From the NCBI GenBank assembly GCA_021777365.1, contig JAJYDP010000347.1, positions 1 through 5,778 on the forward strand: a stretch of DNA of 5,778 nucleotides. Direction: 5' to 3'. The DNA comes from Chloroflexota bacterium (GTDB taxonomy: Bacteria > Chloroflexota > Limnocylindria > Limnocylindrales > CSP1-4). The position numbers and the translations under genes were made by a program. Below are positions 2,198 through 5,752 of this stretch, one piece after another. The notes below the pieces were generated by a model that did no database searches, was not told where the DNA came from, and saw nothing but the letters and a program-made list of their open reading frames with translations. How positions within the stretch are numbered: the stretch's first letter is position 1; the number at the start of each line of letters is the position of its first letter.

Positions 2198-3415
2198 TCA
2201 CCCGTCCAGCAGATCGCCCGAGGCCGCTCCCAGGACCTGCTCGAGCGGCAGGCCCTGTGCGCCGATGAGCAGCGGCCGGGCGGCCGGCGCCATCCTGGTG
2301 AATGCATCGAGTCCCGGCAGGCTGCCCTTTGCTCTGCCGCTCCCGACCTCGATGGCGAGGATCCGCCTGCCGTCCGACAGCACGAAATCGACCTCCCGAT
2401 TGCCCTCGCGCCACCAGGTCACCTCGAGGCTGCTGGGCGCCGTATTCACCAGGTGCGCCCCCACCGCGGTCTCGACCAGGCGGCCCCAGGACTCGCCGCG
2501 TCCCCGGATGACCGCCGGGTCGGCTCCCGACATGGCGGTGACCAGTCCGGTGTCGAGAGCGAGCAGCTTCGGGCTCGACCCGCGCTTGCGGATCTTCGAA
2601 CCGGAGAACTTCTCGAGGCCGGTCAGGAGGCCGGCATCACCGAGCAGGTGCAGGTAGTGCGCGAGCGTGGTCGTGTTGCCCGCGTCGCGAAGCTGCCCGA
2701 GGAGCTTCGTGAAGGACACCACCTGAGCGGAGTAGTCGCACCCGAGCCGGAACAGCTGGCGCAGGAGCGCCGGTTTGTCCACCCGGGTGAGCAGCAGGAT
2801 GTCGCGGGACAGCGTGGTCTCAACGAGCGAGTCGAGGAGGTAGGACCGCCATCGATCGACGTCGTCCACCAGTCCGGCGGCTCCGGGGTAACCACCAAAT
2901 AGCACGAAGCGCTCCAGGTCCCAACCAAAGGCGTCGCGCATCTCGCCGTAGGCCCAGTGGTGCTGGCGGATCAGTTCGAACCGCCCGGCCAGGCTCTCCG
3001 CGAGACCGCGTGCGATCAGCAGCGGCGCGGAACCCAGCAGGACGACACGGACGTCGACGCCGCTGGCGGTGTCCTCGTCCCAGTGCCGCTTGACGATCTC
3101 CGACCAGTCCGGGACCTTCTGGACCTCGTCCAGCACGAGGACGGCGTGTGCGCCCGGCGATCTGCGGGCCAGGACCCGTGCCGCTTCCCACTGCGCCCCG
3201 AGCCACGCGCGGTCCCGCAGGCCGGGGTCGTCGGCGCTGGCCCACGCCAGGGGACCTTCTAGCTCCGCCACCACCTGCCGGACGAGCGTGGTCTTGCCGA
3301 CCTGCCGGGGGCCGGCGACGACCTGGATGAACCGGCGTGGCTCATGGAGCCGTTGGAGCAGCGTCGCGAACGCCGCGCGGCGGTACGGGGGCAGGGAGGG
3401 CGAGTTGCTCAACAC
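2198..3415 (-). CDS. AAA_14 / DUF4143 family ATP-binding protein
   Basis: This 405-residue protein has the full length expected for the AAA_14-DUF4143 family. Residues 28-150 form the P-loop domain, with Walker A GPRQVGKT (35-42), Walker B VLVLDE (92-97) and a sensor-like VVLLGSAP (124-131). Residues 195-295 match the DUF4143 winged-helix region, including SRDILLL, QLRDAGNTTTLAHYLHLLGDAG and SSPKLLALDTG. Residues 340-360 hold the PD-(D/E)xK-like element: E341, D343, then IEVGSG at 355-360, where relatives usually have IEVKSG. The catalytic-type lysine is therefore glycine (G358). The family's function is unsettled; members are often scattered, horizontally transferred and found near toxin-antitoxin genes. 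GTG 3415 is the first possible start, because an in-frame stop lies at 3433-3431. No Shine-Dalgarno is visible, and the promoter position suggests a leaderless mRNA. Family certain, role unknown. Confidence 0.93.
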   Translation of the reverse strand: MLSNSPSLPPYRRAAFATLLQRLHEPRRFIQVVAGPRQVGKTTLVRQVVAELEGPLAWASADDPGLRDRAWLGAQWEAARVLARRSPGAHAVLVLDEVQKVPDWSEIVKRHWDEDTASGVDVRVVLLGSAPLLIARGLAESLAGRFELIRQHHWAYGEMRDAFGWDLERFVLFGGYPGAAGLVDDVDRWRSYLLDSLVETTLSRDILLLTRVDKPALLRQLFRLGCDYSAQVVSFTKLLGQLRDAGNTTTLAHYLHLLGDAGLLTGLEKFSGSKIRKRGSSPKLLALDTGLVTAMSGADPAVIRGRGESWGRLVETAVGAHLVNTAPSSLEVTWWREGNREVDFVLSDGRRILAIEVGSGRAKGSLPGLDAFTRMAPAARPLLIGAQGLPLEQVLGAASGDLLDG

Positions 3416-3417
3416 GG

Positions 3418-3445
3418 TGAGTAAATTTACTCAGCGCGCTGAGTA
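3418..3445. promoter_or_regulatory. Double overlapping palindrome, probable operator of the ATPase gene
   Basis: TGAGTAAATTTACTCA (3418-3433) is a perfect 16-bp palindrome, and TACTCAGCGCGCTGAGTA (3428-3445) is a perfect 18-bp palindrome sharing six bases with it. The half-site TGAGTA therefore occurs three times in alternating orientation. The two dyad centres are 11 bp apart, about one helical turn, so two bound dimers would sit on the same DNA face. The array begins 2 bases before the GTG start of the ATPase gene and covers its predicted -10 and spacer. I infer an autoregulatory operator. Which protein binds is unknown; the winged-helix part of the ATPase is one candidate. Confidence 0.6.
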
Positions 3446-3454
3446 CTAGTCAAC
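3424..3454 (-). promoter_or_regulatory. Predicted promoter of the ATPase gene
   Basis: On the minus strand a -35-like TTGACT (3454-3449) is followed after 19 bases by a -10-like TAAATT (3429-3424). Initiation about 7 bases downstream would fall at 3417-3415, on the GTG start, giving a leaderless transcript consistent with the absence of a Shine-Dalgarno. The spacer is longer than ideal, so confidence is moderate. The -10 and spacer lie within the palindromic array. Confidence 0.45.
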
Positions 3455-3505: not shown

Positions 3506-3937
3506 TCAGTCAGCGGTGGGCACGTCCCCTCGAGCGGCCTCGACCCCGAGGAAATCCGCCGGCGATCGGACAGGTTGCGACCCGCTCAAGACCAGCAGGT
3601 GCCCGTCGCCAGACACGAGGAAAGCGTCCTGGGTGGCAGCCAGGGCGAGGAGGTAATCGTCCCCGGGGTCTGCCGAGCGGATTGCGGGAGGGTCGTCCGG
3701 ATCCCGGGCGAGTGTCGCCGTGCGCGCCAGCCATGCAATCACCCGCTCCGCCTCGTCCGCGGCGATGTAGCGGCGCAGCTTCGGGTCTGCGAGCGCACGC
3801 TCGAGCTCAGCGAGCAGGGCAGCCGAGACCACGAGCTCGAACCTGCCGTCTTGCCATGCCAGCAGGAGGCGCGCCGGCGCGCCGGTTGGCGAGAGGAGGG
3901 CGGAGATGATGACGTTCGGGTCCAGGACTGCGCGCAC
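3506..3937 (-). CDS. PIN-domain toxin (putative TA toxin component, PIN family)
   Basis: This 143-residue protein is the probable ribonuclease toxin of a type II toxin-antitoxin pair. It begins MRAVLDPNVIISALLSPTGA, the usual opening of the COG1569/TIGR00305 PIN subfamily. The acidic active-site set is present: D6, E44 (LLAELE), D93/D94 (PGDDYLL) and D111 (SGDGHLL). These residues coordinate the metal ions used to cut RNA. Proline follows D6 where many VapC proteins have Thr or Ala; I recall this variant in the subfamily and do not read it as inactivating. The GTG start is only 3 bases after the antitoxin stop and lacks a clear Shine-Dalgarno, so translation is probably coupled to the antitoxin. 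The RNA target cannot be read from sequence. The gene appears intact. Confidence 0.88.
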   Translation of the reverse strand: MRAVLDPNVIISALLSPTGAPARLLLAWQDGRFELVVSAALLAELERALADPKLRRYIAADEAERVIAWLARTATLARDPDDPPAIRSADPGDDYLLALAATQDAFLVSGDGHLLVLSGSQPVRSPADFLGVEAARGDVPTAD

Positions 3938-3940
3938 CGG

Positions 3941-4168
3941 TCAGCGTTGCGGTCGGGTCGCGTGCTGCGCTTCCACGGCGAGCGCAATCGACTCCTGCTC
4001 GGGCACCTGGTTGTGCTTCCACAGTCCCTCGAGCAGGTCCAGGCCGAACTCGCGTCGCAGTGCGTCCTCGATCACGGCACTGTCGCCACGGCCCGTGCGA
4101 GCGGCCTGCAGCCTGACCGCGCGAAGGACCCGCTCGTCGATCGTCAGGGTCGTACGGACTTTCGCCAT
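3941..4168 (-). CDS. Ribbon-helix-helix antitoxin of the PIN toxin
   Basis: This 75-residue protein has a ribbon-helix-helix (CopG/Arc-type) N-terminus. Residues 2-10 (AKVRTTLTI) form the DNA-contacting strand, residues 11-24 helix 1 and residues 28-41 (GDSAVIEDALRREF) helix 2. The remaining tail (42-75) contains LLEGLWKHNQV and a polar end, and probably wraps the toxin, as antitoxin C-termini do. In such systems the dimer neutralises the PIN RNase and represses the operon, more strongly when bound to toxin. The toxin gene follows after 3 bases. The ATG start sits 6 bases from a TATGAT -10 box, so the mRNA may be leaderless. Three 8-bp-spaced repeats over that box are a fitting operator. A role as antitoxin is well supported by fold and context. 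Confidence 0.88.
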   Translation of the reverse strand: MAKVRTTLTIDERVLRAVRLQAARTGRGDSAVIEDALRREFGLDLLEGLWKHNQVPEQESIALAVEAQHATRPQR

Positions 4169-4802: not shown

Positions 4803-4806
4803 CCTG

Positions 4807-4813
4807 TCCTCCC
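4807..4813 (-). promoter_or_regulatory. Shine-Dalgarno site of the RmlC-like gene
   Basis: Minus-strand GGGAGGA ends 4 bases before the ATG at 4802-4800 and fixes this start. It contrasts with the apparently leaderless antitoxin and ATPase genes on either side. Confidence 0.65.
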
Positions 4814-4834
4814 GCGAATGTGGTCGCAGTCTTT

Positions 4835-4858
4835 CCGGTTGGGGAGCAACTCAACCGG
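4835..4858. repeat. Inverted repeat upstream of the RmlC-like gene
   Basis: CCGGTTG (4835-4841) and CAACCGG (4852-4858) are perfect 7-bp arms around a 10-base loop that itself contains GCAAC. The element lies in the 136-base gap between the unknown 154-residue protein gene and the RmlC-like gene, 33 bases before the latter's start. No T-run follows on the minus strand, so it is not a standard terminator. It could be an operator or an RNA hairpin at the 3' end of the upstream unit. A shorter repeat, GGCAG-TGCC-CTGCC (4911-4924), lies nearer that gene's stop. No convincing promoter for the RmlC-like gene was found in the gap. Confidence 0.4.
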
Positions 4859-4938
4859 GCACCACTCGCTCCGGTTCGTCCCAGGTGAGTGCTTGTCCGA
4901 ACTCCAGATGGGCAGTGCCCTGCCGCAGACGCCGGCCC

Positions 4939-5403
4939 CTACGCTCGTGACGCGTCCAAAGGGTAGTAGGGGCTGCAGTCGATCGACTCGTCAGCAGCGT
5001 AGCGCCGTCGGAAGTCATCGCGCGCCTCTTCGAGGAAAACAAGGTGATCGCGGAAGTGTCCGCGAGTCCCGTCCGAAGGCGTGCAGTGGAGGTGGTAGAT
5101 CCTCGCCCCGCCACTCCAACGAAACGCATGCCAGTGATGTTCGAGCTGCCCCTGGCCGGTTTGCCACGACATGAGGTAGACATACTCGACCAGCTCCCAG
5201 GCGACGCCGTCCCAGGCGTACCCCTCGTAGTAGCGGAAGGACATGTCGTGCCCCGCAGCGCCGCCAGGAGCCTCGATCCGAGCGTCCATCTGGAACGGCA
5301 CCTGGCCGCGCTCGGATGTCGCGAGGCTGACGTCGCCGTCGCGCGACAGGAGTTCGGCGAGACGGACGACGCGGTCATCGAGTTCCCGTGGGGAGAGGTG
5401 CAC
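4939..5403 (-). CDS. Unrecognised 154-residue His- and aromatic-rich protein, second gene of an HTH module
   Basis: I cannot assign this protein to a family with confidence. It is soluble, with no signal peptide or membrane span. Residues 1-21 form a likely helix (SPRELDDRVVRLAELLSRD). Residues 53-108 are rich in aromatics and look like beta strands (MSFRYYEGYAWDG, ELVEYVYLMSW). A histidine cluster follows: H89, H90 and H92 (EHHWHAFRW), H104 and H106 (RIYHLH), H116 and H120 (HFRDH). The protein ends in a helix, LEEARDDFRRRYAADE (124-139). The regular HxH and HHxH spacing suggests metal binding or acid-base catalysis, but this is inference. The outline vaguely recalls small TA-associated proteins such as TumE/DUF6516; I would not assign it on that. 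The GTG start has AGGA 7 bases upstream, overlapping the preceding gene's TAG, and follows that stop by 9 bases, so the pair is co-transcribed and probably coupled. Confidence 0.75.
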   Translation of the reverse strand: MHLSPRELDDRVVRLAELLSRDGDVSLATSERGQVPFQMDARIEAPGGAAGHDMSFRYYEGYAWDGVAWELVEYVYLMSWQTGQGQLEHHWHAFRWSGGARIYHLHCTPSDGTRGHFRDHLVFLEEARDDFRRRYAADESIDCSPYYPLDASRA

Positions 5404-5412
5404 GGTGGCGTC

Positions 5413-5697
5413 CTAACCGGCGACGAGGCGACCGGCGGATGCAGGGACCTCCTCGTCCGTGAGCTCGTCGCGAAGGTCCTGGGCCCCGGCCGGCGACAAG
5501 TGCCGACGCCTGACGGACAGCGGCCGGCCGATGAGGCGCATCACCTCGCCGTACGGGATCCGCGTAACGCGTGGCGAGACGTGGACGGCTTCGATCGCGC
5601 CATCGCTGATCAGCTTGGTGATGTGCGAATGGCTCGTGCTCAGGATCTCGGCGAGCTCAGCCGGCGTGTAGAACGGCTTCGTCGGGAACTGCTCCAT
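5413..5697 (-). CDS. Excisionase-type helix-turn-helix DNA-binding protein
   Basis: This 94-residue protein has an N-terminal HTH_17/MerR-like domain. YTPAELAEILSTSHSHITKL (10-29) forms the helix-turn-helix, and AIEAVHVSPRVTRIPYGEVM (34-53) gives the wing and following helix, as in excisionase-family DNA-binding proteins. Residues 60-94 are a polar, acidic and basic tail (SVRRRHLSPAGAQDLRDELTDEE) that is probably flexible and could contact a partner. The ATG at 5697 has AAGGA 7 bases upstream. No integrase is visible, so a phage-type excisionase role is less likely than a small regulator. It is first in a two-gene unit, 9 bases ahead of the unrecognised protein gene, and its promoter carries an inverted repeat over the -10. 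This layout is typical of an antitoxin or autorepressor. Fold assignment is good; antitoxin role is inferred from context. Confidence 0.82.
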   Translation of the reverse strand: MEQFPTKPFYTPAELAEILSTSHSHITKLISDGAIEAVHVSPRVTRIPYGEVMRLIGRPLSVRRRHLSPAGAQDLRDELTDEEVPASAGRLVAG

Positions 5698-5715
5698 CGG
5701 CCTGTCCTTCTTGGG

Positions 5716-5729
5716 TATCGATCACGATA
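5716..5729. promoter_or_regulatory. Inverted repeat over the -10 of the HTH module, probable operator
   Basis: TATCG-ATCA-CGATA has perfect 5-bp arms and a 4-base centre, covering the -10 hexamer and the expected transcription start. A small HTH dimer bound here would block RNA polymerase. The first gene product is the obvious candidate binder. Confidence 0.5.
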
Positions 5730-5752
5730 GCCAAGAGCGCCAACAGCGTCAA
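5724..5752 (-). promoter_or_regulatory. Sigma70-type promoter of the HTH module
   Basis: On the minus strand TTGACG (5752-5747) and TATCGT (5729-5724) are separated by exactly 17 bases, giving an expected start near 5717 and a leader of about 20 bases carrying the AAGGA ribosome site (5709-5705). This is the best promoter in the window and shows that the two-gene unit is self-contained. Confidence 0.65.

Follow-up and report, generated by a model that had tools for sequence, protein, structure and literature searches.

A mobile two-gene module in one class of Chloroflexota pairs an HTH_17 protein with a candidate TumE-like toxin

We describe a compact gene pair carried by a 5,778-nt stretch of DNA from a Chloroflexota bacterium, in which a gene for a small HTH_17 protein is followed by one for a 154-residue protein of no recognised family, hereafter the partner. 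The two genes stay together in their relatives, recur at differing genomic sites and are preceded by a predicted promoter of their own. We consider it reasonably likely that they form a type II-like toxin–antitoxin (TA) module that is mobile, regulates its own expression and has a toxin resembling TumE. A first-pass annotation of the window, meaning the whole 5,778-nt stretch, had proposed a TA or regulatory module. Its picture of a self-contained two-gene unit has stood up, and the unit proves to be conserved, patchily distributed and placed at differing sites; toxicity, neutralisation and repression, together with RNase or metal chemistry, are inferred.

Both genes lie on the minus strand. 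The HTH_17 gene encodes 94 amino acids from an ATG start (5413-5697) and the partner gene 154 amino acids from a GTG start (4939-5403), with an intergenic gap of 9 nt. The sequence TAGGA (5411-5415, minus strand) contains the HTH stop codon TAG and, overlapping it, a Shine–Dalgarno-like AGGA for the partner gene. The two reading frames, the 9-base gap and the Shine–Dalgarno on the stop codon are all as the first-pass annotation had described them. This is the layout of a type II TA system, with two small coupled genes and the DNA-binding one first. A spacer (4803-4938, minus strand) separates the module from an rmlC-like gene. Downstream of the partner gene we found neither a terminator nor an unusual RNA fold (z 0.08), and an Rfam search of the window for RNAs gave no matches.

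The strand carries a sigma-70-type promoter ahead of the pair (5724-5752, minus strand), with a -35 box TTGACG (5752-5747), a 17-nt spacing and a -10 box TATCGT (5729-5724), matching the consensus at 9 of 12 positions. It is the only promoter-like site that a consensus scan returned between 4800 and 5778, where shuffled sequences averaged 0.0 sites, and it bears out the promoter proposed earlier. The operator-like repeat proposed with it is real: a palindrome over the -10 box (5709-5736) has 12-nt arms, 11 of 12 positions paired and a 4-nt spacer (TCTTGGCTATCG-TGAT-CGATACCCAAGA), and as good a palindrome arose in 1 of 200 shuffles of the region. It can also be read as CTTGGcTAT-CGTGATCG-ATAcCCAAG, with a middle of eight bases. 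At the same place, the related locus L034 carries TTGTTGGtTAT-N8-ATAgCCAACAA, and L043 carries TTGGGcAT-N8-ATACCCAA, a site found with a pattern composed after sight of those in the window and L034. The three loci have in common such a site lying across the -10 region. Across 24 promoter regions, six held a palindrome equalled by fewer than 5% of shuffles (window 1/200, L034 1/200, L040 0/200, L042 7/200, L047 5/200 and L054 5/200), that of L042 being of a different form. The palindrome of L065 was equalled in 10 of 200 shuffles, and the other seventeen regions, L043 included, gave higher counts. With six of 24 regions passing the 5% level, the putative operator is convincing in the window and in a few of its relatives, and only a candidate in the rest.

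The upstream gene encodes an excisionase-type HTH protein, as had been suggested. It matches Pfam HTH_17 just over the cut-off (27.5 bits against 27) and narrowly misses TIGR01764 excise (28.4 against 28.8). The HTH domain spans residues 9-56 and the C-terminal tail is variable; all 12 aligned HTH relatives match HTH_17. HTH_17 proteins serve as plain regulators too, which we count against the TA reading. Assignment to a named anti-phage system was considered and dropped, the sole match being a weak one of the HTH protein to mad1 (E 0.0099).

The first-pass annotation had called for a neighbourhood survey and held that homologues found mostly without the HTH partner would speak against a module. 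The homologues do mostly follow an HTH_17 gene. The HTH gene stands immediately upstream of 35 of the 40 distinct partner genes examined, at an estimated gap of -13 to +46 nt. The five exceptions are a tandem second partner copy (L035), a core-deleted partner that nevertheless has the HTH gene upstream (L050, seen also as L081), two contigs that start ~100 nt upstream with the tail of the HTH gene visible (L058 and L074) and a truncated fusion (L083). Seen from the other side, an HTH profile gave 56 strong places in 177 genomes, counting matches at E<=1e-15 only and leaving out weaker ones, many of them in long frames. The partner lies downstream in 52 of the 56 (40 from the partner search and 12 of 16 in fetched stretches), one of the 52 being core-deleted in the partner (G105). 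The four unpaired places comprise a fragment (G082), a contig end (G029:C24) and two HTH gene copies with no recognisable downstream partner, L161 (G077:C68) and L169 (G012:C7). Conversely, 7 of 47 partner places lack a listed strong HTH match; these are a tandem copy, contig starts in G129, G061 and G020, and fragments or weak matches in G012:C38, G045 and G046. Within these relatives, pairing is near-obligatory both ways.

The partner matched nothing in Pfam, NCBIfam or PADLOC, in keeping with the earlier impression of a protein outside any recognised family. Queried with the single sequence, a set of 5.8 billion proteins yielded two close relatives, and alignment-based searches returned 34 and 32 proteins; with the single-sequence finds, this amounts to 51 distinct proteins, none of which carries a precomputed Pfam domain. 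The family has two main branches, that of the window (~155 aa) and a second, branch B (~170 aa), with the motif HEHCE; their profiles match each other at E 2.6e-21. In an alignment of 35 diverse members (A8, a selection from the family), P46, E60, Y74, H90, H104 and C107 are invariant, and G23, H92, H106, H116 and C143 nearly so. The histidine pattern noted in the first pass is present as HHWH (89-92), HLH (104-106) and HFRDH (116-120), and of it H89 and H120 are absent from the list of residues conserved in the 35 diverse relatives. Among the other alignments, A2 omits L036, L048, L049 and L050 (partial, chimeric or core-deleted) from 17 places found, and the partial sequence P0034 is excluded from A3 and included in A4.

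A structural model of the partner built from 52 sequences reached a pLDDT of 90.3 and a pTM of 0.84, where one built from only three sequences had stayed at a pLDDT of 49.6. The model places helices at 5-20 and 124-136 and strands at 24-29, 37-46, 52-64, 69-80, 86-93, 101-108 and 115-118, giving a predicted order of one helix, seven strands and one helix (alpha-beta7-alpha). No solved protein matched it confidently, START-like ligand-binding chains appeared among its structural matches at low scores only, and a search by sequence found no solved structure for the family.

This order of elements recalls TumE (DUF6516) toxins. As described in excerpts of PMC10584680, these consist of an antiparallel sheet of seven strands carrying two helices, lack confident PDB matches and are encoded predominantly downstream of their partner gene. 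According to the same excerpts, TumE was toxic in Escherichia coli in 6 of 6 tested cases and the one labelled TumE lowered methionine incorporation, with RNase activity called unproven. The TumE–TumA system (DUF6516, PF20126) and the pair described here are both two-gene units in which a protein of alpha-beta7-alpha make-up, predicted as such in our case, is encoded downstream of a partner gene; here that gene encodes a DNA-binding protein, stands upstream in 35 of 40 cases and matches HTH_17 in 12 of 12 aligned proteins. The predicted element count and order agree with the description given in that paper. A solved structure was found neither for TumE nor, by sequence, for the partner family. 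In the profile alignment both show a conserved Glu in strand three, a Y-x-Y in strand four and an H-x-H in strand six. Unlike TumE, the partner family has C107, H116 and C143 as additional conserved residues, and no HTH_17 partner was seen upstream of the TumE genes viewed by eye.

We compared profiles using 30 TumE sequences drawn from Chloroflexota (7 of 151 genomes) and from the phylum of cyanobacterium L019 (13 of 98), a set that omits 9 of 39 matches (seven partial or weak, two duplicates). The two-branch profile aligned with them end to end over 119 collinear columns (P 2.1e-4, probability 46%). With gappy columns removed it scored 29.45 over 117 columns. No column shuffle out of 300 scored this high and a single block shuffle out of 300 did, none over at least 100 columns, and decoys scored 11.3 (reversed), 11.7 (rmlC-like) and 8.9 (HTH). 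The first branch alone, likewise freed of gappy columns, scored 22.0, against a best of 19.7 in 400 column shuffles and 24.9 in 400 block shuffles, the ten best of which span at most 56 columns. Other alignments gave P 0.002 and 0.017 (A4 profile), P 0.004 (two-branch profile against an 11-row TumE set) and P 0.001-0.016 over 70-74 columns (branch B alone). The profile similarity thus appears modest and alignment-dependent. The Pfam TumE model (PF20126) matched none of the 35 partner members at E<=1, and the TumE motif R-[WY]-D-N-x-x-H ... H-H-x-H is absent from the family, with only its H-x-H part and a nearby His aligning. Because the Pfam model misses all 35 members, the RWDN motif is absent and the alternative alignments are weaker, we do not assign the partner to the TumE family; it would probably act as TumE does and may be a distant relative of these toxins.

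We surveyed the occurrence of the family in the class of G003 and the window, which we take to be Limnocylindria. A three-row profile matched 15 of its 177 genomes at E<=0.01, some of them weakly, and a 47-row profile matched 38 of 177 at E<=0.001, with a few fragments among the matches. Five further genomes found through the HTH gene (G084, G039, G043, G013 and G107) bring the number to at least 43 of 177. A sample of 400 genomes from the phylum gave 15 matches, every one of them also in the class search; the wider 35-row profile matched 11 of 261 sampled genomes, each also among the class matches. Samples from the phyla of two other MAGs, covered with a capped first look, contained none: 0 of 296 (with the first profile) and 0 of 115 for the Solirubrobacterales MAG L012, and 0 of 130 for the gammaproteobacterial MAG L021. 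Since matches fall within the class and the samples of other phyla are empty, the family seems restricted to a single class of Chloroflexota. Contigs of genome, viral and phage collections, scanned with the narrow three-row alignment, gave no relative, and plasmid contigs gave one weak match (E 2). Some genomes hold several copies of the module: four in G147, three in G012 and three in G101. Searches of titles and abstract openings in the literature found no description of an HTH_17/154-aa pair and nothing on Limnocylindria with toxin–antitoxin.

Comparison of flanking DNA showed how far the shared stretch extends. We aligned eight branch-B modules in stretches of up to 18 kb, having dropped a ninth, L186, with no HTH core. 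In 23 of 28 pairwise comparisons, a test limited where contigs stop shortly past the module (L183), the homology at that place is the module alone, beginning between -45 and -91 and ending within ~25 nt of the partner stop codon. Most shared stretches begin at about -70, and the -35 box lies at -68 by our own count in L073; identity across the shared stretch is 82-91%. The other five pairs have longer homology: in L181/L183 and L187/L188 it gains less than 100 nt, in L183/L184 it runs on through a tRNA-Ser, and in L181/L185 and L182/L188 it takes in an upstream stretch. Short blocks at other distances or places are common to several pairs (for example L184/L187). A tRNA-Ser (TGA) gene also lies shortly upstream of the branch-B module in L077 (896-981) and L078 (929-1014). 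About 8.3-8.5 kb past the HTH core of L184, near the match to the tRNA-Ser region of L183, there is a short partner-gene match (+8338 to +8423) that is perhaps the remnant of a second copy.

In the window's own branch, homology with L034 (51% protein identity) covers 5739-4952, which is the module, with a further match of 108 columns elsewhere. At the sister locus L001, of a Chloroflexota MAG whose rmlC-like gene is 93% identical to that of the window, homology to the window starts at 4812, ten bases ahead of the rmlC-like start; the module therefore lies beyond the break. No partner gene was found at E<=0.1 in the genome of L001, which may be incomplete. Upstream of the homology, L001 has an open frame that reads like a putative rmlD-type reductase. 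In another set of genomes L039, L040 and L050 have common flanks, so some copies were inherited in place. Overall, the distribution is patchy and mobile, as in type II TA systems. Pairwise dN/dS among seven branch-B genes is 0.15-0.32, the mark of purifying selection, and the partner protein has therefore been kept. One genome (G105; L050, G105:C29) retains the HTH gene and has lost ~240 nt of the partner core in frame, and another (G010) holds the partner twice in tandem; these could be traces of an active toxin and its decay, short of proof.

The TA pair that the first-pass annotation placed ~770 nt from the module is there as an RHH gene at 3941-4168 and a PIN gene at 3506-3937. At L001 the counterpart of this pair (2179-2740; window 3506-4168) lacks the start of the RHH gene, the homology skipping window positions 4221-4088, and keeps the PIN region at ~89% identity. 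An AAA_14/DUF4143 ATPase gene (window 2198-3453) is absent from the blastn matches to L001; it has a promoter-like site at 3453-3424 and a palindrome, GAGTAAATTTACTC, at 3419-3432 just before its start. A two-gene module with a PIN toxin, in which a short (truncated) MerR-related HTH protein is the proposed antitoxin, is described in excerpts of PMC2701414. That proposed antitoxin resembles the HTH protein described here in being short and MerR-related; the toxin differs, being a PIN nuclease, to which the partner is unrelated by Pfam. The antitoxin in those excerpts carries its extra small domain at the N terminus, whereas the extra tail here is C-terminal.

That the pair is regulatory and toxin-free, an HTH transcription factor with a ligand- or metal-sensing co-regulator acting on its own operon and perhaps other genes, is unlikely, if far from implausible. 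The operator-like site over the promoter would suit such a pair, as would the conserved His/Cys set of the partner and the START-like, ligand-binding character of some weak structural matches. Furthermore, five of 12 HTH proteins match Pfam MerR, and many HTH proteins of the MerR type sense metals or drugs. A comparable arrangement exists in ArsR–COG3832 (COG3832 being an SRPBCC domain), where a small HTH gene stands beside one for a one-domain alpha/beta protein; it differs in its HTH family, and no SRPBCC Pfam match occurs in any of 35 partners. ArsR–COG3832 figures among the two-gene systems in the excerpts of PMC2701414. However, no regulated neighbour genes travel with the module, which is shared alone in 23 of 28 comparisons, and multiple copies per genome together with loss at the sister locus fit a selfish module better. 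Even less probable, to the point of being very doubtful, is that the partner is an enzyme of metabolism or resistance controlled by a dedicated repressor: the His/Cys/Glu cluster is a conserved polar set that resembles an active site, but no enzyme family matches, sites and copy numbers differ and no pathway neighbour was seen. We give virtually no credence to an unrelated regulator that happens to precede an orphan gene, for although a short two-gene stretch in one window can arise by chance and each gene alone is unremarkable, pairing in 35 of 40 and 52 of 56 places contradicts it.

We therefore return to a TA module with a TumE-like toxin, a reading we favour because of the near-obligatory pairing, the predicted TumE-like make-up, the profile alignment with TumE, the shared operator-like site, relocation, absence at L001, copy number and dN/dS. 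It is weakened by the failure of Pfam TumE on all 35 members, the lack of RWDN, the modest and alignment-dependent profile match, the want of a confident structural match to a solved protein, the count of six palindromes in 24 regions and the two partnerless HTH genes. In such a module, one promoter would yield a two-gene mRNA, and the HTH_17 protein, as the proposed antitoxin, would bind the palindrome over the -10 box and repress the operon. Its short variable C-terminal tail would hold the partner inactive. The partner, a predicted alpha-beta7-alpha protein and perhaps a remote kin of TumE toxins or their structural twin, would block translation, probably via RNA cutting, and a metal ion could be held by the cluster of E60, Y74, H90/H92, H104/H106, C107, H116 and C143. 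The whole would change sites as a minimal unit that begins with the promoter and ends at the stop codon. More tentatively, as a possibility that we rate somewhat short of even, the partner would represent a novel family of toxins, with a TumE-like scaffold remodelled about a conserved His/Cys centre that may hold a metal, paired with a MerR/excisionase-type antitoxin, restricted to one Chloroflexota class and moving as a ~0.8-kb promoter-to-stop unit.

If true, the proposal would add a TA family that has no name in the profile libraries we searched, and would tie it to the recently found TumE toxins, whose chemistry is unproven. It would also provide a naturally occurring variant whose residue set differs, with which to study how TumE-like toxins work. 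Finally, the sharp promoter-to-stop boundaries make this module a clean case for studying the relocation of the smallest gene modules.
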